IMG/VR virus record: IMGVR_UViG_3300033388_005621 | Coordinates: 1-23,785 of that record | DNA from: a virus | Direction: 5' to 3' (one strand) | Length of the DNA: 23,785 nucleotides | Part shown: piece after piece, positions 5,634 to 18,823 of the stretch | How the letters are laid out: the number at the start of each line of letters is the position of its first letter | Numbering within the stretch: the stretch's first letter is position 1 | The notes under the pieces: generated by a model | What the model was told of the DNA's origin: nothing | Seen by the model: the letters and a program-made list of their open reading frames with translations, nothing else | Database searches by the model: none | Position numbers and translations under genes: made by a program

Positions 5634-7811
5634 ATGGCTTTAGATCAATTTATGATAGCTCCGTTTAATTCAGGTCTACAAGATAATGTGAAGCCATTCC
5701 TAATTCCTGAGGATGCGTTTGCTGAACTTAAGAATGCATATATCTTTCGTGGAAGAGTTAGAAAAAGATTCGGCTCTAGACTTATAAGTCCTGGAACTCC
5801 TCCAACTGTTGGATTTGAACAACTTTCTTCTCGTTTAAGGGTTAAATTAGGAGCTAGAAACGGAACTGTTCCTGGATATACAGGTGCAATGATTGGTACA
5901 ACTGGACAGATGTTTTCCATAGATGAAGAACTGTTCACTGTGTATCAAACAGGTGTAGCTGCAGACATGCTAAAAACAGGTCCTGCGACAACTTTCACCT
6001 TTGATACAACCAACGGCGCATATGTAATTGTTTCTGCTACTGTTGGAGATCTTTATTACTATCCAGCTCAGCCTGTTATGGGATTTGTTCAGTTTGAAGA
6101 TGCACCTATAAATGAAGAACCAACATATGCCTTTGATACTAGAATGGCATATAGATACGCTACAACTGGATGGGAACGATTAGCAACTGGTGCTGACTTA
6201 TGGACACAAGATGATTCTCATTTCTTCTGGTCAGTAAACTATAGAGGTATTGATTCAGAAGATACTGTTCTATTTGTTACAAATAATAGCGCCACAGACC
6301 ATGTAAGATACTGGGATGGAGCTACATGGGTTTCTTTTACACCTAAATTTAATGTAGCTGGAACTAATACAGTTGAAGGCTGTAGATTAATTCTTCCATT
6401 TAAGAACAGACTTTTGTTTTTCAACACTTATGAGAAAAGAGCCGCAGCATCGTCTCATCATCCAAACAGAGTTAGATTCTCTCAAAACGGCTCTCCAATA
6501 CCTGCTGCTGGTGATGCTTGGCTAGAACCTAGCGAGACTGTTGGTAAAGGTGGATGGATAGATGCTGATACCAAAGAAGAGATTATTTCAGTAAAACTTT
6601 TAAGAGATAGAGTAATAGTTTTTTTTGAGCAAAGCACTTGGGAGCTTGTATATACAGGAAACAAGATCCTTCCTTTTGTTTTTCAAAGAATTAACTCTGA
6701 ACTTGGGGTAGAATCTACATTCTCTACAGTTCTATTTGATAAAGACATTCTTGGAGTGGGTAACGTAGGTATTCATGCATGTAATGGTGCAAATGTTACA
6801 CGTATAGACAATAAGATTCCGGACAAAGTCTTTCAGTTCCACAATGAGAATGATGGAGTTGAGCGTGTAGCTGGAATACGGGATTATTATGCTGAAATGG
6901 TCTATTGGACTATTCCTAGCATGCATGAGAATCCAAAGTTTCCAAACCAGGTGCTTGTATATAACTATAAAAATAGAACATGGGGTATTAACGATGACTC
7001 TATTACCGCTTTTGGATATATTCAGAATCTTTCTGATGAACGTTGGCAGGATATTAATTGGACATGGGCAGAATGGAATGAGCCATGGAACAGTGCAGAT
7101 ACACAGTCGCAGTTTAGACAAGTTTTAGCGGGGAACCAAAGTGGGTATACGTTTATTATTGATTCTGATTTGCCAAGGAATAGTAAATCCCTTCAAATAA
7201 CAAATCTAACTAATGCAGCAGGAGTTATAACTGTAACTTCTATCGCACATAACCTTGAAGTTAATAGCTTTATTAATATTGCTGATGTGCTTGGCTCAAC
7301 ATTTGTTGATGGAATATATCAGATTACATCTGTACCTTCTGATGATACTTTTACAATCAATGAACCTGCATTTGCAACTGCTTATACAGGTGGTGGAACC
7401 ATAGCTCGTGTTAGCAAGATAGATATTCTTACAAAACAGTTCAACTTCTACTTTAAGGGTGGAAAGAATTGTTATATTCCTAAGATAGAGTTCCATGTAG
7501 ACAGAACAGCAGCAGGAAAGATATCAGTTGACTTCTTTACATCAACATCTATTAGATCTTTAACTCTTGATGGAATTAACTCAGGTGCTCTATTGGGTAC
7601 AAATGTTCTTGAGACATTCCCATATCCATCTGTTGGGTCAGAGTTTTATCAAGATAGACTATGGCATCCATTGTTTCCTCAGGCTGATGGTGAGTTCATA
7701 CAGATACGATTGTATTTAGATGGAAGTCAGATGATTGATAACGAAGTTGCATTTTCAGATTTTCAGTTGCATGCAATGTCAATATATGCGAAACAATTAG
7801 AAAGATTTTAG
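5634..7811 (+). CDS. Tail nozzle / stabilisation protein, 725 aa
   Basis: The start MALDQFMIAPFNSGLQDNVK with KNAYIFRGRVRKRFGSR is the typical opening of large beta-propeller tail-nozzle or stabilisation proteins of short-tailed phages (the role of T7 gp12 or P22 gp10). Residues about 84-150 are an inserted beta domain (GTTGQMFSIDEELFTVYQTG, ending YYYPAQPVMG). Repeated beta blades follow (VRYWDGATWVSF, LILPFKNRLLFFNTYE, LLRDRVIVFFEQSTWELVYT, VLVYNYKNRTWGINDDS). Residues about 520-592 form an FCCH-like beta domain (TNAAGVITVTSIAHN) related in style to that in the accessory capsid protein. The C-terminal region (from about 600) is another beta sheet domain. AGGAG precedes the ATG by 6 nt, and the gene starts 8 nt after the previous stop. 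Confidence 0.7.
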   Translation: MALDQFMIAPFNSGLQDNVKPFLIPEDAFAELKNAYIFRGRVRKRFGSRLISPGTPPTVGFEQLSSRLRVKLGARNGTVPGYTGAMIGTTGQMFSIDEELFTVYQTGVAADMLKTGPATTFTFDTTNGAYVIVSATVGDLYYYPAQPVMGFVQFEDAPINEEPTYAFDTRMAYRYATTGWERLATGADLWTQDDSHFFWSVNYRGIDSEDTVLFVTNNSATDHVRYWDGATWVSFTPKFNVAGTNTVEGCRLILPFKNRLLFFNTYEKRAAASSHHPNRVRFSQNGSPIPAAGDAWLEPSETVGKGGWIDADTKEEIISVKLLRDRVIVFFEQSTWELVYTGNKILPFVFQRINSELGVESTFSTVLFDKDILGVGNVGIHACNGANVTRIDNKIPDKVFQFHNENDGVERVAGIRDYYAEMVYWTIPSMHENPKFPNQVLVYNYKNRTWGINDDSITAFGYIQNLSDERWQDINWTWAEWNEPWNSADTQSQFRQVLAGNQSGYTFIIDSDLPRNSKSLQITNLTNAAGVITVTSIAHNLEVNSFINIADVLGSTFVDGIYQITSVPSDDTFTINEPAFATAYTGGGTIARVSKIDILTKQFNFYFKGGKNCYIPKIEFHVDRTAAGKISVDFFTSTSIRSLTLDGINSGALLGTNVLETFPYPSVGSEFYQDRLWHPLFPQADGEFIQIRLYLDGSQMIDNEVAFSDFQLHAMSIYAKQLERF

Positions 7812-7820
7812 GTTGCTTCA

Positions 7821-7860
7821 TCGTGTCGGCATCTCCTCGTGCCGGCACGAATTTATTCTT
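7821..7860 (+). terminator. Hairpin between convergent genes
   Basis: TCGTGTCGGCA (7821-7831) pairs with TGCCGGCACGA (7840-7850): an 11-bp stem with one G-U pair and an 8-nt loop, followed by ATTTATTCTT on the plus strand. It lies between the plus-strand nozzle gene and the end of a minus-strand gene. T-richness is better for plus-strand transcripts. Confidence 0.6.
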
Positions 7861-8398
7861 GAATATATTCTAATACTATGTAGCAAGTATCGTATGCCGT
7901 TCTATCAACAGCCCCAGTATTTATGATTACATTAGTACCATCAACTGACAGTTCTATTCCATTATTTGCTGCAGTAATACTTGAATACGGTAGTGGTATA
8001 TAAGTGTGACCTGTTGTATCAGATGCAGTTCCATATATTCGTGTGAATGTTAATTGATCATTAACTGTTAACCCATGAGCTGAAGTTTTTGATGCTGCAT
8101 TTGGAAGAGCTCCAAAGTTAATTACTTTTCTAGACACTTGTCTGTGCTCGGGAGTTTGAGCGGAAGAAGAATCTAGTCCCTCTTTCTCGAACCAAAGTTG
8201 TCCATTTAAGAACTCTTGTTCTACATAATATCCCGCGTCTCTTAAGTTTACTCCTATGCGTATATTGTTTGTTGCTTGAGCTAGCCTAATAAGAAGGTCT
8301 TTAAGGTTTGGATCTATATTCTCCATATTATCTATTGTTGAGGTGTCAAAAATATCTGTTGTAGGTATAAATGCACCAAATTCAGACTGATTTGCCAT
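7853..8398 (-). CDS. Fibre-like structural protein on the minus strand, 181 aa
   Basis: The frame could be read further upstream, but AAAGGAGAAGAA directly before the ATG at 8396-8398 fixes the start at MANQSEFGAFIPTTDIFDTS. Residues about 20-80 are helical (NMENIDPNLKDLLIRLAQAT, then IRIGVNLRDAGYYVEQEFLN). The C-terminal half is a beta domain with VINFGALPNAASKTSAHGLT, FTRIYGTASDTTGHTYIPLP and a closing TAYDTCYIVLEYIQE. That pattern (FGxLPN, AHG, TRIYG, VVLEY-like end) recurs in environmental phage virion proteins and is probably an attachment or fibre domain. It is the only structural-looking gene on the minus strand here, ends against a hairpin, and is divergent from the next gene, which has nearly the same ribosome binding site. 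Confidence 0.7.
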   Translation of the reverse strand: MANQSEFGAFIPTTDIFDTSTIDNMENIDPNLKDLLIRLAQATNNIRIGVNLRDAGYYVEQEFLNGQLWFEKEGLDSSSAQTPEHRQVSRKVINFGALPNAASKTSAHGLTVNDQLTFTRIYGTASDTTGHTYIPLPYSSITAANNGIELSVDGTNVIINTGAVDRTAYDTCYIVLEYIQE

Positions 8399-9129: not shown

Positions 9130-10260
9130 ATGGCTATACAAATTCTTCCTAGGGAGACTGGTCTTGGCGAGATTCTTGGAACAGGACTTGGTTCAGGTTT
9201 AAGTACCGGATTAGAACAACTCGCACAACAAAAAATGCAACAACTGCAAAGCAGGCAACAAAAAGCGGCTATGATTCCAGGAATCAAGAGTTCTTTAGGC
9301 GTCACGGATGAAGTAGCAAATCAATTAGTTAATTTGCCAACCTCAATGCTACAAGAAGTGTTTAAATCACAAGGGCGCGCAGGCAAAGAGGCAGGATTTC
9401 AACAAGCACTAGAAAGGCTTGGTCTTGGGACAGGCGATCAACAGCCGGGGCAACCTACTGTAGATCAAGTAGCACCGCAAGACGGCGGTATAATTGGTAG
9501 ACCACAACTTTCTGAAAAAGGTGCTACAGAAATAGCTAAGATTAAACAAGAACAGTTAAAAGAAGCTCGTAAAGATGTTAAACAGAAATGGGCGTTTAAT
9601 AAGGATTTTATAAGCGAATCTGTTAAAAAATCTTCTACAGCAAGAAAGGCAATTTCACGCTATAAGCAACTTAGAGCTTTAAGTGAAAAAGGAAATCTTA
9701 AAGCTGGCTTATATCATTCGCTCTTGAAAAAAACTGGATTAGATATTCCAGCTCTTATGAATGCAGATGAAGAAACATACCGAAAAATTCAAAATGAGTT
9801 TGTTACAGATATTAAGGATGTGTTTGGAGCTCGTATTACCGAAAAAATGATTGAAGTTTATCTAAAAATAATTCCAACACTTCAAAACACAGACGCTGGT
9901 AAAAAAATAATAATTGATATTCAAGAGCTTAAAGCAGAAGCTGAATTATCTAGAAGCAAATCAATAGAAGATGTAATTAGTGAAAATGGCGGAACTCCAC
10001 CATATGATCTAAATATTCAAGTAGATAGACGAATGAATGATATATATGACAACCTTGCTGAGAAGAGTGTTCAAAAAATTCAAGAAGGTCAGCAACATAT
10101 TAAGCAACAAAAAAGTGGAACTGCTTATGTTGGAAAAAAATATAAATCTTCTGAAGTAGATAGACTTCCTGTTGGCGTTATAAGTAAAGCAGACGCTAGT
10201 GGTAATAAATGGAAAGTAGGTCTTAATGCTGAAGGGAAAAAAGAATGGCAACTCGTTTAA
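9130..10260 (+). CDS. Probable internal virion / DNA ejection protein, 376 aa
   Basis: The gene begins 15 nt after the previous one with AAAGGA upstream. The N-terminus is Gly/Leu periodic (ETGLGEILGTGLGSGLSTGL) followed by a Gln-rich helix (LEQLAQQKMQQLQSRQQ). A flexible Gln/Pro/Gly region lies at about 90-125. The rest is almost entirely helical and basic. A section around residues 205-265 (NEFVTDIKDVFGARITEKMI, then IPTLQNTDAGKK) resembles a conserved stretch I recall from similar environmental phage proteins. The C-terminal 40 residues read as a small beta element (SSEVDRLPVGVISKADASGN). The stop overlaps the next gene by 16 nt, so the two are translationally coupled. Pilot or ejection protein is an inference from order and composition. 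Confidence 0.6.
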   Translation: MAIQILPRETGLGEILGTGLGSGLSTGLEQLAQQKMQQLQSRQQKAAMIPGIKSSLGVTDEVANQLVNLPTSMLQEVFKSQGRAGKEAGFQQALERLGLGTGDQQPGQPTVDQVAPQDGGIIGRPQLSEKGATEIAKIKQEQLKEARKDVKQKWAFNKDFISESVKKSSTARKAISRYKQLRALSEKGNLKAGLYHSLLKKTGLDIPALMNADEETYRKIQNEFVTDIKDVFGARITEKMIEVYLKIIPTLQNTDAGKKIIIDIQELKAEAELSRSKSIEDVISENGGTPPYDLNIQVDRRMNDIYDNLAEKSVQKIQEGQQHIKQQKSGTAYVGKKYKSSEVDRLPVGVISKADASGNKWKVGLNAEGKKEWQLV

Positions 10261-11714
10261 ATAATTCTTCTCCCAAAATTCCTGATTTTTTAGAAATAGA
10301 AGAAAATCAGGAAGAAACTGCCCTTCAAGAGCCACAAATGCAATCACAACAAGAACTTCTTCCTCAGCAACAGTTCCAACAACCGCAAGCTCCAATGGAA
10401 CTTGAAGTGGAAAGTGAACCAGCTGAAACATGGTCTCAATGGGGATTAAGAAATCTTGTTAATATTGTTAAGGGTGGAGCAGAAAAGGCCTTTGGGGTAT
10501 TGACAGGTGGAAACCTTATTGAGGGATATAAGGGATTTAAAAAAGCTGCCCAAAAGAAATGGGGCCCAGATTGGGATGGCCTATATAAAAAAATAGAACA
10601 AGAACAAGGACCAGAGGCAGCAAAAGGTGTTAAAAATCTACATGAAGTGCTTGGATTATCTTATGATCAACCATCTGCATTAGATTTTGTTACTTCAGGA
10701 GCTCCACCAACTAGTGAACATGCTAAAAGAGCAACTGAAGCAATAGCAGGATTAACTCTTGGTGTACCAGAAGAATATTGGGAGCCAAGAAATGATAATG
10801 AGAAAATATCTAGAGACTATGTTAACAGGGTAACTGGATATATGATGTCTCCGCAAGGAGGGGTTAGCTCGTTCATTCTACCAATTATAGGTATCGGTGG
10901 AAAAAACGCAGCTAAAGCGTTAGGTGCTAATGAATTTTGGCAGGAGGCTATTGGCACAGGAGCTGAGATAACCGCTAATATCTTTAATCCATATAATGCT
11001 GAAAAAAAATTAGCCGAGAACTTTAAGAATATTGATAAAAGAATTAGTTCTGTTGGTGATGGAAACGCAATAAAACTTAAAAAGGTAATGCAAGACGTTC
11101 AAGAGAAAGCATATGGATTTGGAGATCCAACAAAAGCAGACGAATGGATACTTAAAAGATCCGATAAAGTTTTAGATTTTATTAGGAATAAAAAAGTAAA
11201 TTTAAAAGATCTTTGGGACTATAAAACCGATAAATTCCCATCTCATATTGGAGAATTTAAAGGAGATAAATCAAAAATTTTTAATTTCTCTAAAAAACTT
11301 AATGATGTTATAGATGAAACAATTATATCTGCAACAAAAAAAGTTGATCCATCATTTGCAACTCTATATACAGATTCTAATAAGGTTTATTCATCAATGA
11401 TGAAAGGTGCGAATGTAGCCAATACTATGGATAATCTTAAAAATACTTTTGGAATAGCAAAAATTTTATCCGGAGGACTAAGAGGTGTAAAATGGATGCT
11501 ACAAGGAATAGCAAAAATAACCGGACTTAAGCACGTAGGACAAGCAGCTAATGTATTTGCCACTAGTAAGGCAGGAGTAAAGTTTTATGGAAAGATTCTT
11601 GCTGATGCTGCGCGAAATAATATACAATCAACATCAAGAAATATGAAAAAGATGCAGGCTGTTCTAGAAAAAGAATTTCCTGGAATAACAGAGCATATGG
11701 AAAATTATGAATAA
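10245..11714 (+). CDS. Probable internal virion / DNA ejection protein, 489 aa
   Basis: The ATG lies inside the end of the upstream gene (16-nt overlap) with GAAGGGA before it, indicating coupled translation. Residues 1-65 are acidic, Gln/Pro-rich and probably disordered. Around 66-95 is WSQWGLRNLVNIVKGGAEKA, an amphipathic helix. Residues about 205-235 are hydrophobic and glycine-rich (SSFILPIIGIGGKNAAKALG). The remainder is helical and lysine-rich, with a further apolar region at about 405-440 (IAKILSGGLRGVKWMLQGIA). No lytic transglycosylase motif or other enzyme signature is visible. With the two genes before it, this forms the third member of a likely ejection-protein set, increasing in size as in podoviruses. 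A strong terminator follows. Confidence 0.6.
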   Translation: MATRLNNSSPKIPDFLEIEENQEETALQEPQMQSQQELLPQQQFQQPQAPMELEVESEPAETWSQWGLRNLVNIVKGGAEKAFGVLTGGNLIEGYKGFKKAAQKKWGPDWDGLYKKIEQEQGPEAAKGVKNLHEVLGLSYDQPSALDFVTSGAPPTSEHAKRATEAIAGLTLGVPEEYWEPRNDNEKISRDYVNRVTGYMMSPQGGVSSFILPIIGIGGKNAAKALGANEFWQEAIGTGAEITANIFNPYNAEKKLAENFKNIDKRISSVGDGNAIKLKKVMQDVQEKAYGFGDPTKADEWILKRSDKVLDFIRNKKVNLKDLWDYKTDKFPSHIGEFKGDKSKIFNFSKKLNDVIDETIISATKKVDPSFATLYTDSNKVYSSMMKGANVANTMDNLKNTFGIAKILSGGLRGVKWMLQGIAKITGLKHVGQAANVFATSKAGVKFYGKILADAARNNIQSTSRNMKKMQAVLEKEFPGITEHMENYE

Positions 11715-11827: not shown

Positions 11828-12238
11828 TTATGGTGTTTGTGGTGGCCAATTGTTTGATCTGATCTCCTGGCCGTTGTTATCATAATCAATTGGCTCATAG
11901 AAAGAAAGTCTTACTTTTCTTCCATTCCAATAAGAACCATTTACTATCTCATGGATGCTCTGACGTCGCACATTGGCATTACCATTAAGGCTAGAAACAA
12001 TAGGAACATGAATATTAGGTATATTTTTCCTACGAAACCTAATTGTGCTATTAGCACCATCCTTTGTTTTTTGGATTTTTCTCTTCTGTCCCTTATTCTT
12101 TCTGATCTTCTTTGTTGTTTTTTTATTATCTTCTCCCATATCTATTGCAGGAGATACTGCTAATGCATTTAATCCAAACAAAAGAAACACAACAATGCTA
12201 CATTTTTTTATACTTGCTCTCACACTTATATTTTGCAT
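11828..12238 (-). CDS. Secreted basic protein of unknown function, 136 aa
   Basis: AAAGGTAG stands about 7 nt before the ATG at 12236-12238. The N-terminus is a clear Sec-type signal peptide: basic n-region (MQNISVRASIKK), apolar core (CSIVVFLLFGLNAL) and Ala-containing c-region, with cleavage likely after about residue 27 or 31. The mature part opens with a very basic, probably disordered stretch (residues 38-60: KKTTKKIRKNKGQKRKIQK). A more ordered part follows, with IRFRRKNIPNIHVPIVSSL and a C-terminus rich in Asn, Asp and aromatic residues (LSFYEPIDYDNNGQEI). No Cys in the mature chain, no lipobox and no enzyme motif are visible. The start overlaps the end of the upstream membrane-protein gene by 41 nt, so the two are expressed together. 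Envelope-acting accessory protein (exclusion, lysis or host modification) is an inference. Confidence 0.65.
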   Translation of the reverse strand: MQNISVRASIKKCSIVVFLLFGLNALAVSPAIDMGEDNKKTTKKIRKNKGQKRKIQKTKDGANSTIRFRRKNIPNIHVPIVSSLNGNANVRRQSIHEIVNGSYWNGRKVRLSFYEPIDYDNNGQEIRSNNWPPQTP

Positions 12239-12491
12239 TTATAACTACCTTTACGATAAACGCGGTTAACAATAATATCCACACATACTGCGATGTAATA
12301 ACATCAATAAACATAATTAGAATAGCTAAAGGGATAAGTGTTACTACGTGCCATCCAGTTGGTGCATCGTAAGCAAGAACTCCACATAGAACACCAAAAC
12401 CGAATGATATAATAGTCAATAAACCTAACATTATTGACAATCTAACGGTCAATATCGTAAAAATCTTTTTTATCTCGTTTAAGTTTTTCAA
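12198..12491 (-). CDS. Small membrane protein (holin-like topology), 97 aa
   Basis: Three hydrophobic segments are visible: about residues 17-40 (RLSIMLGLLTIISFGFGVLC), 49-66 (VVTLIPLAILIMFIDVIT) and 68-84 (YVWILLLTAFIVKVVI). A short basic tail follows (KYKCESKYKKM). This size and topology fit a holin, an exclusion protein or another small inner-membrane protein; sequence alone does not choose. The start is uncertain: TTG at 12489-12491 has GAGGG at suitable distance but makes a 50-nt overlap with the regulator gene; an ATG at 12429-12431 gives a shorter protein without a visible Shine-Dalgarno. The 3' end overlaps the secreted-protein gene by 41 nt, suggesting coupled translation of a membrane/periplasm pair. 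Confidence 0.6.
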   Translation of the reverse strand: MKNLNEIKKIFTILTVRLSIMLGLLTIISFGFGVLCGVLAYDAPTGWHVVTLIPLAILIMFIDVITSQYVWILLLTAFIVKVVINAKYKCESKYKKM

Positions 12492-12621
12492 TTATAGCCC
12501 TCGTTATCCATTTAGTTATTGTACAATTACGATCAATACATTCTTTTTTAGCATCTTTAAAAATATCTTCTTGTATATCTACAGAGAGCCTTAATCGACC
12601 CGTTCTTCTTGTTTTTTCCAT
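12442..12621 (-). CDS. Ribbon-helix-helix DNA-binding protein, 59 aa
   Basis: AAGAAGGA about 8 nt before the ATG at 12619-12621 fixes the start, rather than longer in-frame starts. The fold is readable directly: a basic strand with alternating residues (GRLRLSVDI, residues 8-16), helix A (QEDIFKDAKKECIDRN), a turn with Thr, and helix B (TKWITRAIIEKLKRDKKD). This is the Arc/MetJ-type ribbon-helix-helix fold, whose dimers insert the paired strands in the DNA major groove. It is the first gene of the three-gene minus-strand cassette and probably autoregulates it. A palindrome GTGTACAC lies 28 nt upstream of its start. Antitoxins also use this fold, but the neighbour is a membrane protein and not a recognised toxin. 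Confidence 0.75.
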   Translation of the reverse strand: MEKTRRTGRLRLSVDIQEDIFKDAKKECIDRNCTITKWITRAIIEKLKRDKKDFYDIDR

Positions 12622-12635
12622 AATGAAATCCTTCT

Positions 12636-12656
12636 TTTTATACTCTAAGTGTACAC
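12636..12656 (-). promoter_or_regulatory. Candidate promoter/operator of the minus-strand cassette
   Basis: Read on the minus strand, GTGTACAC (12649-12656, a perfect 8-bp palindrome) lies 6 nt upstream of a TATAAA box (12637-12642), which is 15 nt before the regulator's start codon. A repressor bound there would block the promoter, as expected for autoregulation by the ribbon-helix-helix protein. The -35 is weak. Confidence 0.35.
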
Positions 12657-12703
12657 ATTTCCACACAAAAATAAAGTTATTTGTACCATTAGGACATAGT
12701 GTG

Positions 12704-12733
12704 TTGTTTGCTAGCTGAAGAAAAAGTTACAAT
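12704..12733 (+). promoter_or_regulatory. Candidate promoter for the fibre region
   Basis: TTGTTT (12704-12709) and TACAAT (12728-12733) are separated by 18 nt, directly upstream of the first fibre gene and divergent from the minus-strand cassette. The -10 matches consensus at five of six positions, the -35 at three. Confidence 0.35.
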
Positions 12734-12751
12734 TTTACAAAGGAGTTCAGA

Positions 12752-13975
12752 ATGTCAGTTTCAAAGCAAAGAAGAAATCTTGCTTATGGTGTTTCGAATC
12801 CTCTGCAAACCTTAAGTCCAGAGCCAATTGTTTCTTCACGGGCTCCTAAGACATCAGATAAGGCAGAGGTAGGAACAATTTGGGTATATAAAGCAACAAA
12901 TCAATCATATGTTCTTGCAAGCATAGTAGCTAACTCAGCTACATGGACACCACTTACAGTTAATGCAGGCGCTACAATTACAACTGGAGATCTCACTGTT
13001 GTAGCCTGTAATATTATTGTAACTGCAGGTGACATTAATCTTGCAGTCGGTGATGTTAATTTAACTTTTGGAGATTTATTAGCTCCTGCAGGGGATATTA
13101 CAGCAGGGAAAAAAGTTACAGGAGGAACAGGTCTTGTTGCCTCTATAGGAGGTGTTACATCAGGAAATGGAGATATTACAGCTACACTTGGAAATATTGT
13201 TACAAGTGCTGGAAGTATAATCTCACAAACAGATATTACTGCAGTTACTGGGGATATTAATGTTACAGCCGGTGATATCTACTGTGACGTTGGTCTTATA
13301 CAATCAACAGCTGGTGGAATGGCTGCTTTTACAACAATAGTTGCAGGACAAGGATTGCATTCAACAACAGGCGGGGTAACAGCTTTACTGGATGATATAA
13401 CAGCTAGTGCAGGTAACATTGTTGCAACACTAGGTGGCATTACAGCTGATGCAGGAGATATAACGGCAGTTCTTGGATCTGTCGAAGCTGGCACAACAGT
13501 TACAGCAGGCACAGGCATTATAGCAACTACTGGTGGAGTTTTAGCTAGTGCAGGTAACATTGTTGCAACACTAGGTGGCATTACAGCTGATGCAGGAGAT
13601 ATAACAGCAACTCTTGGTGCTGTCGAAGCTGGCACAACAGTTACAGCAGGCACAGGAGTCATTGCAACTACAGGCGGAGTCCTCGCAAGCGCAGGCAACA
13701 TTGTTGCAACTCTAGGTGGAATCACAGCTGACGCTGGAGATATAATAGCAACACTTGGTGATGTCTCAGCTGTTCAGTTAAGAGCTGGTGGGGATACAGG
13801 AGGTACCGCTACAGAAACAACTATTACTAATGGTGACGAAGGTACTGTTAGTTCAGGTGCTGGATCAATTAAGATGACGACAACCAACGCCTCAGATTCG
13901 ACGGGATTCATTAAAATTTACGTAGGAACTGACATAAAATATATTCCATATTTTGATACTCACGGCACACCGTAA
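12752..13975 (+). CDS. Repeat-rich beta-helix tail fibre, 407 aa
   Basis: AAAGGAG precedes the ATG by about 8 nt. Residues about 20-70 carry a docking-like motif: RAP at 30-32, GTIWVYKATNQSYVL and a Trp at 65. The same motif begins two later fibres, so it probably anchors the protein to the virion. Residues about 75-365 are a continuous series of 11-13-residue units of the type AGDITATLG, the signature of a beta-helix or trimeric beta-solenoid stalk. Part of this is a 47-residue tandem repeat (units at nt 13403, 13544 and 13685). The last 60 residues lose the repeat (NASDSTGFIKIYVGTDIKYI) and probably form a cap. No peptidase or depolymerase motif is seen. A hairpin follows the gene. Confidence 0.7.
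   Translation: MSVSKQRRNLAYGVSNPLQTLSPEPIVSSRAPKTSDKAEVGTIWVYKATNQSYVLASIVANSATWTPLTVNAGATITTGDLTVVACNIIVTAGDINLAVGDVNLTFGDLLAPAGDITAGKKVTGGTGLVASIGGVTSGNGDITATLGNIVTSAGSIISQTDITAVTGDINVTAGDIYCDVGLIQSTAGGMAAFTTIVAGQGLHSTTGGVTALLDDITASAGNIVATLGGITADAGDITAVLGSVEAGTTVTAGTGIIATTGGVLASAGNIVATLGGITADAGDITATLGAVEAGTTVTAGTGVIATTGGVLASAGNIVATLGGITADAGDIIATLGDVSAVQLRAGGDTGGTATETTITNGDEGTVSSGAGSIKMTTTNASDSTGFIKIYVGTDIKYIPYFDTHGTP
13403..13770 (+). repeat. Tandem 141-bp repeat in the beta-helix fibre
   Basis: Units begin at 13403, 13544 and 13685, exactly 141 bp apart; the third is partial. The first 62 bases of units 1 and 2 are identical, including third codon positions. Unit 3 keeps the protein (ASAGNIVATLGGITADAGDI) while differing at many synonymous sites. 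Confidence 0.85.
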
Positions 13976-15022: not shown

Positions 15023-18000
15023 ATGAGTTATTTAACATATAATCAAAGCGCTGTAGTAGGTGTAATGAATACACTTACAGGAAATGTCGGCGGTGCAGTA
15101 GGACCTGATGCTGCGCATAATATAAATTTTGTTGGTGGTGGTGGCATTACTGTTACTGGTACTCCTGTAACTAACACTTTAACTATTACTGTTGCTGGCT
15201 TAACTGTTCCTGAAGGTGGAACTGGTCTTACAACAATTACAGATCATTCACTTGTTGTTGGATCTGGTGTTGCTGCGATGACTGAACTTGGTGTGGCCAC
15301 CGATGGTCAACTTGTAATCGGATCAACAGGTGCAGATCCTGTACTTGCCGCACTTACATCTGTTGGCGGAACAATTTCTGTTACAAATGCAGCTGGTTCA
15401 ATAAATTTAGATGTAATAGCTGCTGGTGGAGCTATTACACAACTTGATGGGGATAGTGGCTCAGCTACTCCTACATTGGGTGTTGTAGATGTTCTTGGTG
15501 GAACAAATATAACAACAGTTGGAAATTTAAGTGACCTCACAGTTAATCTAGATACCATCTTAGATGGAATAGATGATATTACATTTATAGCTGGTGGAAC
15601 AATTAGAACAGGCTTAATAGCAGCTGATAATCTTCTTATACAAGCTTATGATGTTGACGGCGCTTCTTATACAACATTTGCAACTTTGACATCAAATAAC
15701 ACTCCAACCATGGATTTAAGTGATGATGTTACCAAAGCTAGTGGATATATATATCGGGGTGGTGGCACTGATGTTCCTGTTGCTGATGGTGGCACTGGTT
15801 CATCGACACTTACAGATCACGGAATTTTGCTTGGATCTGGTACTTCTGCAATAACACCATTGGGCGTCGCAACTAACGGACAAATTCCAATTGGATCAAC
15901 AGGCGCAGATCCTGTTCTTGCAAACATAACTTCAACAGGTGCAACTCTTACCGTAACTAACGGTGCTGGAACAATAAATATTGAAACTGGCGGCGCTGTA
16001 ATGACAGGCCTTGATGCTGACTCAGGTTCCGCTGTGCCAACAGCAGGAGTTATTATAATTGAAGGTGGCGACAATATAACTACATCAGCAATTGGAACAA
16101 ATGTTCTTACTGTTGATCTTGATGCAGCTATATCTGGAACTTCATCACTTACAATGGCAACTGGTGGAGCAATAAGAACTAATACTGGAGCAGGAAATAC
16201 TCTTTTATTCCAAGCTTACGATGTTGATGGAGCCGCATATTCTACTTTCGCAACAATGACTGCAGCTAACGATCCATCAATGAATCTTGCTGATAATGTT
16301 ACGAAGGGAGGCGGTTATATTTATCGTGCCGGAGGTACTGACGTGCCAGTTACCGATGGTGGTACTGGTGTCTCTACTCTCACTGATCATGGTGTTGTTG
16401 TTGGTTCTGGTACATCGCCAGTAACTTCATTAGCAGCAGCTACAAATGGTCAATTAATAATTGGTTCTACAGGCGCAGATCCATCTTTAGCTGCTATTAC
16501 ATCAGCAATGGATTTAACAATTACCAATGGTGCTGGAACAATAAACATAGACCTTACAGATAATACACATAATACCGCTGTTGATGGTTGGGCCGGGTCT
16601 ATAATTGAAACGAATAGTGTTACCGTAACATCTGATGGCGGAACAATAACATTAGCTGTTGAAAAGTCAGGAGGAGGTAATCTTACAGTTGTATTCTCTA
16701 GTGATTTTTATGATTGGGTAACTGCCCCAGCTACAGTGACTCTAACAGCTGGTTCTGATACAGCCCCTCAAATTAACTATGTTTATCTTCTAGAATCAAC
16801 AAAAGTATTAACTGCTAGTACAGTATCGTTTCCATCATCAGCAACTGAGTTTGCTCCTATAGCAACTGTTTTATGTCAAAGTGCGGCTTCTCTTGTGGCA
16901 GAAGGTGCATATAAGGTTCACGCATGGACAGATCATATTTCAAATGGAAATGGTCATGTTCAGCATTTAAACAGTTGGATAAGAAACCAGAATGCTACAT
17001 GGATATCAGGAGTTGGACAAACTCTTACTATAACTCCTAATGGTGGCGCACCAGACAATGTTATATTTACAACAGCAGCAGGAGTTGTTTTGCAACTTCA
17101 TGATCATACATTCCCTGCATTTTCTGGAACGCCAGATGTTTATGTTGTAAATGACTCTGTGACGCCTTATGACCTTGTTACAGATTTAAACACACAGCTT
17201 ACCGATTCAACTGGCGCTTCAATGTCAGCCAGTTACTTCTCTCTTGTTATTTGGGGTGTAGTAAGTGAAGACACCGGCGACTGTAAGTTGATGTTAAATC
17301 TTCCAGCAGGAAGTTATGGTACAGCTGCAACATTAGCAACAGACCTTAATAAATACGCAGACTATATAATACCTGCAGATTTTAAAGGTACAGGATTCTT
17401 AATATCTCAGCTTAATTTAAGACATCAAACATCTGCGTCTGGAACATGGACATCTATAGAGGAAATTGATCTTAGGGGGTTGGTTCCATCTATTTCTGCT
17501 GGTGGAACAACAGCATTCCCAACTGAATTCCCAGATAATACATTTAGAATTAATGACAACGCAGATCCAACGAAACTGATTGCCTTTGAAGCTTCAGCAA
17601 TAACAACAGCTACAACAAGAACAATAACAGCTGCTGACCGAAATGTTGATCTAGACGCTGTTTCGGACAGTTTCGTAACTGGCTCGGGCACAGCAACTCC
17701 ATCAGGAGGTGTGATCAATATCACTGGTGGAACTAATGTTACTACTACTGGCTCAGGAAATACGGTTGTAATAAATGCAACAGGTTCTGGTGGGGGAATT
17801 ACATTTTCTGAGATTACGGGAACTAGCCAAGCAATGCTCTCAAACAATGGATACATAACAAATAATGTGGCTCAAGTTGTTTGTACTTTGCCGGACACAG
17901 CAGCACTTGGTTCAATTGTTCGTGTAACAGGTAAAGGTGCCGGTGGCTGGCGTATTTCTCAGAATGCTGGTGAGACAATTACATGGGATGAAAGCTTATC

Positions 18001-18127: not shown

Positions 18128-18187
18128 GAAGCGTAGGTAATGGTACAGTCTTTATTATATTTACATCTAAATACAATAGAGGATGAC

Positions 18188-18823
18188 ATGAAAATTTGCA
18201 TAGACTGTGCCATTGAGAAAGAACTAAATGAATTCCCTAAAAATGGCAAATACTACAGAAGAAGATGTAAAATGTGCCATACACATAAATTTAAACCTAA
18301 AACAGGAAAGATAAACACTGGAAGATTTAAAAAGGGACATGTTCCATGGATAAAAGGAAAAAAAGGATTTATTCCATGGAACAAAGGATTAATTATAGGT
18401 GGAAATTCTAGAGATTGTAAAGCATATTTTATATGGAAAAGTTCGGTATTTGAAAGAGACAATAATAAGTGTCAGCATTGTTTTTCTAAAGAGAAACTTA
18501 TAGCTCATCATATTAAACCATGGAAAGACTTTCCTGAATTTAGATTTGATGTTGATAACGGGCTAACTTTATGTGCTTCATGTCATACAAAAATTCATTT
18601 AAAAGAAAAAAGCGCTTTTCAAAAAGGCGCAACTCCATGGATTAAAGGCAAAAAACATAGCGAAGAAAGCAAAAGAAAAATGAGTGATTCGCTTAAAGGT
18701 AAAATCTCATGGATGAAGGGCAGAAAACATAGCGAAGAAAGCATAAAAAAGATGTCTGAGTGTCATAAAGGCCAAATCCCATGGAATAAAGGTTTAAAAA
18801 AGGAGATAAATAATGGCGACTAA
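18188..18823 (+). CDS. Freestanding HNH homing endonuclease with NUMOD3 motifs, 211 aa
   Basis: GAGG about 6 nt before the ATG at 18188 supports this start over an upstream one. The N-terminus holds a zinc ribbon (C4, C7, C27, C30). The HNH core spans about 82-138: CQHC (95-98), HH at 107-108, N124 and CASCH (129-133) with H137, so the metal-binding and catalytic positions are intact. NUMOD3 DNA-binding units are at about 156-172 (KHSEESKRKMSDSLKGK) and 180-195. PW(I/N)KG motifs at 53, 63, 150 and 198 flank the core. The stop overlaps the next fibre gene by 11 nt. Such enzymes nick or cut related phage DNA and spread themselves with flanking genes; position between fibre genes suggests they are its target or passenger. 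Confidence 0.85.
   Translation: MKICIDCAIEKELNEFPKNGKYYRRRCKMCHTHKFKPKTGKINTGRFKKGHVPWIKGKKGFIPWNKGLIIGGNSRDCKAYFIWKSSVFERDNNKCQHCFSKEKLIAHHIKPWKDFPEFRFDVDNGLTLCASCHTKIHLKEKSAFQKGATPWIKGKKHSEESKRKMSDSLKGKISWMKGRKHSEESIKKMSECHKGQIPWNKGLKKEINNGD

Follow-up and report, generated by a model that had tools for sequence, protein, structure and literature searches.

The closest known arrangement to the locus described here is the immI region of phage P22. There, gene 16, which encodes an ejection protein, is followed by the minus-strand genes sieA, orf59a and mnt, then by arc and ant, and finally by gene 9, which encodes the tailspike. PMC10883804 describes SieA, a superinfection exclusion protein, as fast-diverging, reports that mutations allowing escape from SieA map to ejection proteins, and places sieA-like genes at the same position in P22-like prophages. 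We analysed a stretch of 23,785 nt from an uncultivated virus (IMG/VR virus record IMGVR_UViG_3300033388_005621, positions 1 to 23,785; hereafter the window), in which a gene for a ribbon-helix-helix (RHH) protein and two further small genes lie on the minus strand at an equivalent place. In literature searches, we did not find a description of the present island.

Three overlapping minus-strand genes in a late region

The window has the content of a tailed-phage late region, with a scaffold-like gene, a major head protein (match to phrog_1357, E 9e-31), a large head/tail structural protein (match to phrog_3287) and several fibre-like genes. An HNH endonuclease gene with NUMOD3 motifs is located amid the fibre genes at 18140-18823. 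The features at the locus are as follows.

10245-11714, plus strand: left boundary gene of the slot, large and variable, ejection/tape-measure-like by position and by the match of its counterpart in locus L022
11745-11774, plus strand: hairpin with a U-rich tail on the plus strand only (-21.7 kcal/mol, z -6.2)
11828-12238, minus strand: secreted protein gene, 136 aa, ATG start, variable cargo
12198-12491, minus strand: gene for a 97-aa membrane protein, starting at a TTG preceded by GAGG, variable cargo
12442-12621, minus strand: RHH (Arc/CopG-type) regulator gene, 59 aa, ATG start, first gene of the cassette and core gene lineage-wide
12622-12751, no strand assigned: divergent region of 130 bases between the RHH gene and the first fibre gene, putatively regulatory
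12649-12656, no strand assigned: GTGTACAC palindrome in the divergent region, putative RHH operator box
12752-13975, plus strand: first fibre-like gene, which bounds the slot on the right

A previous sequence-only reading had proposed that three overlapping genes occupy 11828-12621 on the minus strand, encoding an RHH protein, a membrane protein of three segments and a basic protein with a Sec signal peptide. All three open reading frames are present and overlap one another. When the region was dinucleotide-shuffled 1000 times, no minus-strand open frames of such length arose, and for each gene the best codon score among the six frames was that of the annotated one, in agreement with that proposal. 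A later ATG at 12431 is a possible alternative start for the membrane protein gene. The cassette has a GC content of 32.9%, compared with 38.6% outside it, and a poorer codon match. The same reading had the cassette running against all its neighbours, which holds locally but not across the window, where the gene at 7853-8398 also lies on the minus strand. The latter is a conserved late gene with a constant place but an orientation that apparently switches within the lineage, as 36 loci have it on the minus strand and 64 on the plus.

The proposed identities of the three proteins are borne out by profile matches, an AlphaFold model and hydrophobic segments. The window RHH by itself gave only a weak match (phrog_582, E 0.02), and the profile of its family matched RHH structures with a best E of 3.4e-4. 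The AlphaFold model (pLDDT 86.6) has two helices and structural matches to CopG and Arc proteins; Foldseek assigned it a probability of 0.99 to CopG, with E-values above 0.1 for so short a chain. The strand-helix-helix fold and the length, within the range of about 45-60 residues, place the protein among the MetJ/Arc/CopG RHH proteins. The model terminates at helix 2 without a long toxin-binding tail. Some members of the family touch HicB/ParD models, and the match of the family profile to Mnt is weak (15 bits). Three hydrophobic segments were detected in the membrane protein, and a single N-terminal one in the secreted protein. By reading, the N terminus of the secreted protein is a Sec-type signal peptide followed by a Lys/Arg-rich stretch, and the whole protein has a net charge of +16; its structure predicted from the single sequence was uninformative (pLDDT 49).

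The cassette had also been described as enclosed by a terminator hairpin on one side and a promoter-like divergent region on the other. The hairpin is strong, but since its U-rich tail is found on the plus strand only, it most likely serves as terminator for the plus-strand gene upstream and not for the cassette. On the other side, the sigma-70 promoter signal in the divergent region of the window was not above chance. Promoters were detected in the divergent regions of the relatives L007, L018 and L039 at p < 0.03, and L072 and L097, the RHHs of which are 57% identical, have by reading kept TTGAC(A/T)-N16-TACAAT alongside GTGTAC-type boxes.

The RHH gene is the conserved core

IMG/VR contains at least 574 relatives of the neighbouring structural gene. 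We assembled 61 IMG/VR loci, including the window, that extend from this gene as far as the first fibre gene, and found an RHH gene in the slot between the ejection/tape-measure-like gene and the first fibre gene in 58 of them (about 95%). All 61 RHH matches were on the minus strand, one alone lying outside the slot, and no plus-strand match was found in any locus. Where dS could be estimated, RHH pairs had dN/dS of about 0.04-0.27; the RHH family is under purifying selection and not decaying. The RHH gene usually starts near the start of the fibre gene. In three pairs of loci (L003/L004, L112/L121 and L016/L022), nucleotide similarity is lost across the upstream gene and the cargo, where present, and returns at or inside the 3' end of the RHH gene, so that the RHH gene travels with the fibre-side block in these pairs.

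Conservation of the three genes as a unit, as the sequence-only reading had envisaged, was ruled out. Searches of Pfam, PHROGs, PADLOC, phage records and the fetched loci gave no convincing relatives of the membrane and secreted proteins, and it is the RHH gene in its slot that is conserved. That reading had named absence of the trio from all related phages, with signs of decay, as an outcome speaking against it; the trio is indeed absent from the relatives, but the genes are open and the RHH is under purifying selection. A candidate second locus for the secreted protein, L005, was rejected as a 17-residue match inside an unrelated gene. Since there are loci with the RHH alone, the RHH rather than the cargo is the core of the island.

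We found no tyrosine integrase in 21 records of the lineage, many of them partial, so that prophage-type exclusion as in P22 is not indicated. Among cultured distant relatives, the late-region stretches that were read (a Bruynoghevirus, Bacillus phage Page and Pseudoalteromonas phage Y3) contain no such minus-strand island. A search for the host among bacterial genomes returned nothing with the first protein query, and the capsid query matched only four MAG contigs (Thermotoga, Saccharibacteria, Parachlamydiaceae and Lokiarchaeota), which looks like binning noise.

The cargo is variable and rich in membrane proteins

No cargo of at least 30 aa was found downstream of the RHH gene in 17 of 60 RHH loci; some of these loci encode a membrane peptide below that length or have a gene on the upstream side of the RHH gene. 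The RHH must therefore serve some use without cargo. In the other RHH loci, about three quarters, the cargo is of many unrelated kinds, among them HNH nucleases, HTH proteins and zinc-ribbon proteins. Size- and RBS-matched cargo genes far more often encoded a membrane-like segment than did small genes elsewhere in the same loci (43 of 60 versus 38 of 404, p = 1.4e-24), also after removal of duplicates and of the window (40 of 57 versus 36 of 375) and against minus-strand genes elsewhere (43 of 60 versus 9 of 33, p = 6e-5). Segments were detected here with a Kyte-Doolittle average on genes called by a simple script, neither of which is a trained predictor. Sec-type N-termini were recognised by reading in several cargo proteins, for example in L060, L094, L103 and L125. 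An apparent cluster of eight hydrophobic cargo proteins was discarded as compositional, having appeared without composition correction. More minus-strand genes for small proteins lie outside the slot on the L006 contig (G001; L042/L043), at 6766-7095, 15157-15411 and 34917-35411; these proteins have signal-peptide-like N-termini and several have Lys/Arg-rich mature parts.

One recurrent type of cargo (L034, L070, L092, L115 and L119) consists of a zinc ribbon followed by a membrane segment. The ribbon resembles that of HNH nucleases, and such cargo is possibly derived from homing endonucleases. In the related slots of L107 and L126, an HNH-like gene is present between the RHH gene and the membrane gene in L126 and absent from L107, which suggests that homing nucleases visit the slot. 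None of the cargo proteins scanned matched a known defence or exclusion family, and blastp of SieA against all cargo detected no homology (best E 0.34).

The RHH contact strand covaries with upstream boxes

The GTGTACAC palindrome at 12649-12656 is the sole such site in the window. An association between the RLSVD contact strand of the RHH and TGTACA upstream was noted as an idea before a second set of loci was fetched. For counting, the contact-strand class was widened from RLSVD to admit S or A, giving [RK]-hydrophobic-[SA]-hydrophobic-[DE], and GTAC was sought in the 100 bases upstream. In the later-fetched loci, GTAC was found upstream of 7 of 9 RHHs of this class and of 3 of 29 others (p = 2.9e-4), and in all loci together upstream of 10 of 12 and 10 of 43, respectively (p = 2.6e-4), among RHHs that are related to one another. 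Palindromes in general were weakly enriched upstream of RHH genes (Fisher p = 0.012). In the window, G016 and G001, intergenic TGTACA was seen only by the RHH gene; G016 has a second TGTACA inside an overlapping small ORF call. Covariation of a DNA-contacting strand with the upstream boxes supports, without proving, self-regulation by the RHH. Together with the RHH locked in its slot and the membrane-rich cargo, it lends support to the earlier description of the cassette as a self-regulated, oppositely oriented envelope module.

Possible roles of the island

The reading that we prefer, tentatively and at nearly an even chance, is that the cassette represents one allele of a self-regulated accessory island with an RHH core, locked in position and strand among the late genes of a large lineage of uncultivated phages, with cargo that most likely acts in SieA-like exclusion. 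The RHH would bind boxes in its own divergent upstream region (TGTAC in the type found in the window) and thereby regulate its own operon, whose expression could be separate from that of the rightward late genes, with the RHH setting its level. The two cargo proteins of the window are predicted to go to the inner membrane and across it, where cargo would most likely block DNA entry of related phages. If so, turnover of the cargo might stem from an arms race against the ejection machinery, the genes for which adjoin the island. Superinfection exclusion by the cargo is plausible by analogy with P22 immI and sieA, and it is the likeliest part of the earlier suggestion of exclusion, lysis or toxin-like activity; a lysis role is unlikely in general and a toxin role found no support. 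In a more specific form, which we consider unlikely, the slot would be an RHH-anchored exchange site: the RHH would keep its place next to the fibre genes, and exclusion proteins acting at the envelope would be replaced along with the adjacent ejection gene, providing modular superinfection exclusion for lytic infection in phages without a detected integrase.

The main point that the preferred reading leaves unexplained is the retention of the RHH in loci without cargo. An alternative is that the RHH is chiefly a phage regulator, acting for example on the divergent fibre promoter or on another phage or host gene, and that the cargo is passenger DNA tolerated by virtue of its separate transcription. 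A near-universal RHH (58/61) beside cargo missing in 17/60 fits this explanation, as do the start of the RHH gene close by that of the fibre gene and the tracking of the fibre-side block in three pairs. We nevertheless regard it as rather unlikely, as the cargo is far from random in its strong enrichment in membrane proteins, and intergenic TGTACA in the window, G016 and G001 was seen only beside the RHH gene.

It is improbable that the slot is a general accessory (moron) hotspot without a single role, where different cargo would serve different ends, for instance counter-defence, envelope stress or receptor change. A fixed RHH and strand and the common membrane bias suggest a shared theme, despite the many unrelated cargo types, including HNH nucleases, HTH and zinc-ribbon proteins, and the lower GC and poorer codon match in the window. 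A module for lysis or its timing, with a holin-like membrane protein, a spanin-like secreted protein and the RHH as timer, is compatible with the size and topology of the window proteins, but is very unlikely given that these proteins match no lysis family and have no adjoining endolysin gene, that the endolysin of the relative G015 lies elsewhere and that many loci have no cargo. A toxin-antitoxin-like pair of an RHH antitoxin and a small hydrophobic toxin is highly improbable: RHH folds are common among antitoxins and some family members touch HicB/ParD models, but the RHH here stops at helix 2 without the C-terminal tail of an antitoxin, the cargo is unrelated between loci and often absent, no partner of a known toxin family was found and the window proteins match no defence system.

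If the preferred reading is true, an RHH gene in backward orientation ahead of the first fibre gene would serve as a simple genomic marker for phage envelope proteins, and it would reveal dozens of unrelated small membrane and secreted proteins acting at the host envelope. The layout of P22 immI and sieA would also extend to an abundant uncultivated lineage without a detected integrase. It raises the question of why the regulator is retained even where the cargo is gone.

Comparison with known systems

The combination of genes had not been recognised in the sequence-only reading, yet it has a precedent in part, since a similar island is found at the equivalent place in P22. In the immI region of P22 (Lederbergvirus) as in the window, an island set among the late genes, with an ejection gene on one side and a tailspike or fibre gene on the other, carries a minus-strand membrane-protein gene and a minus-strand RHH gene, the ejection role of the upstream gene here being assigned from its position and one tape-measure match of a counterpart. 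The RHH operators of P22 lie in the divergent region, where the putative box is found here. Unlike in P22, where sieA has its own promoter, the RHH and cargo genes overlap here as one operon; arc and ant, located on the plus strand in P22, are absent, with the fibre gene directly next in the window; and no counterpart of the P22 integrase was found in 21 records of the present lineage.

SieA and the window protein are both small multi-segment membrane proteins at an equivalent genomic place, but SieA has 164 aa and four segments, compared with 97 aa and three, and their sequences do not match. With the Arc, Mnt, CopG and omega repressors, the RHH shares the fold, the size, the short C terminus and probable autoregulation through upstream boxes, whereas identity in the structural matches shown is low (6-24%), the operator boxes differ and DNA binding here is putative. 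The island is similar to phage morons in its opposite orientation, lower GC, poorer codon match and variably present cargo, and differs from them in having one core gene in about 95% of the spanning loci, so that it is not sporadic. The layout therefore resembles that of immI, no descent of the cargo from SieA is detectable, and a role in exclusion is suggested by analogy with the P22 island.
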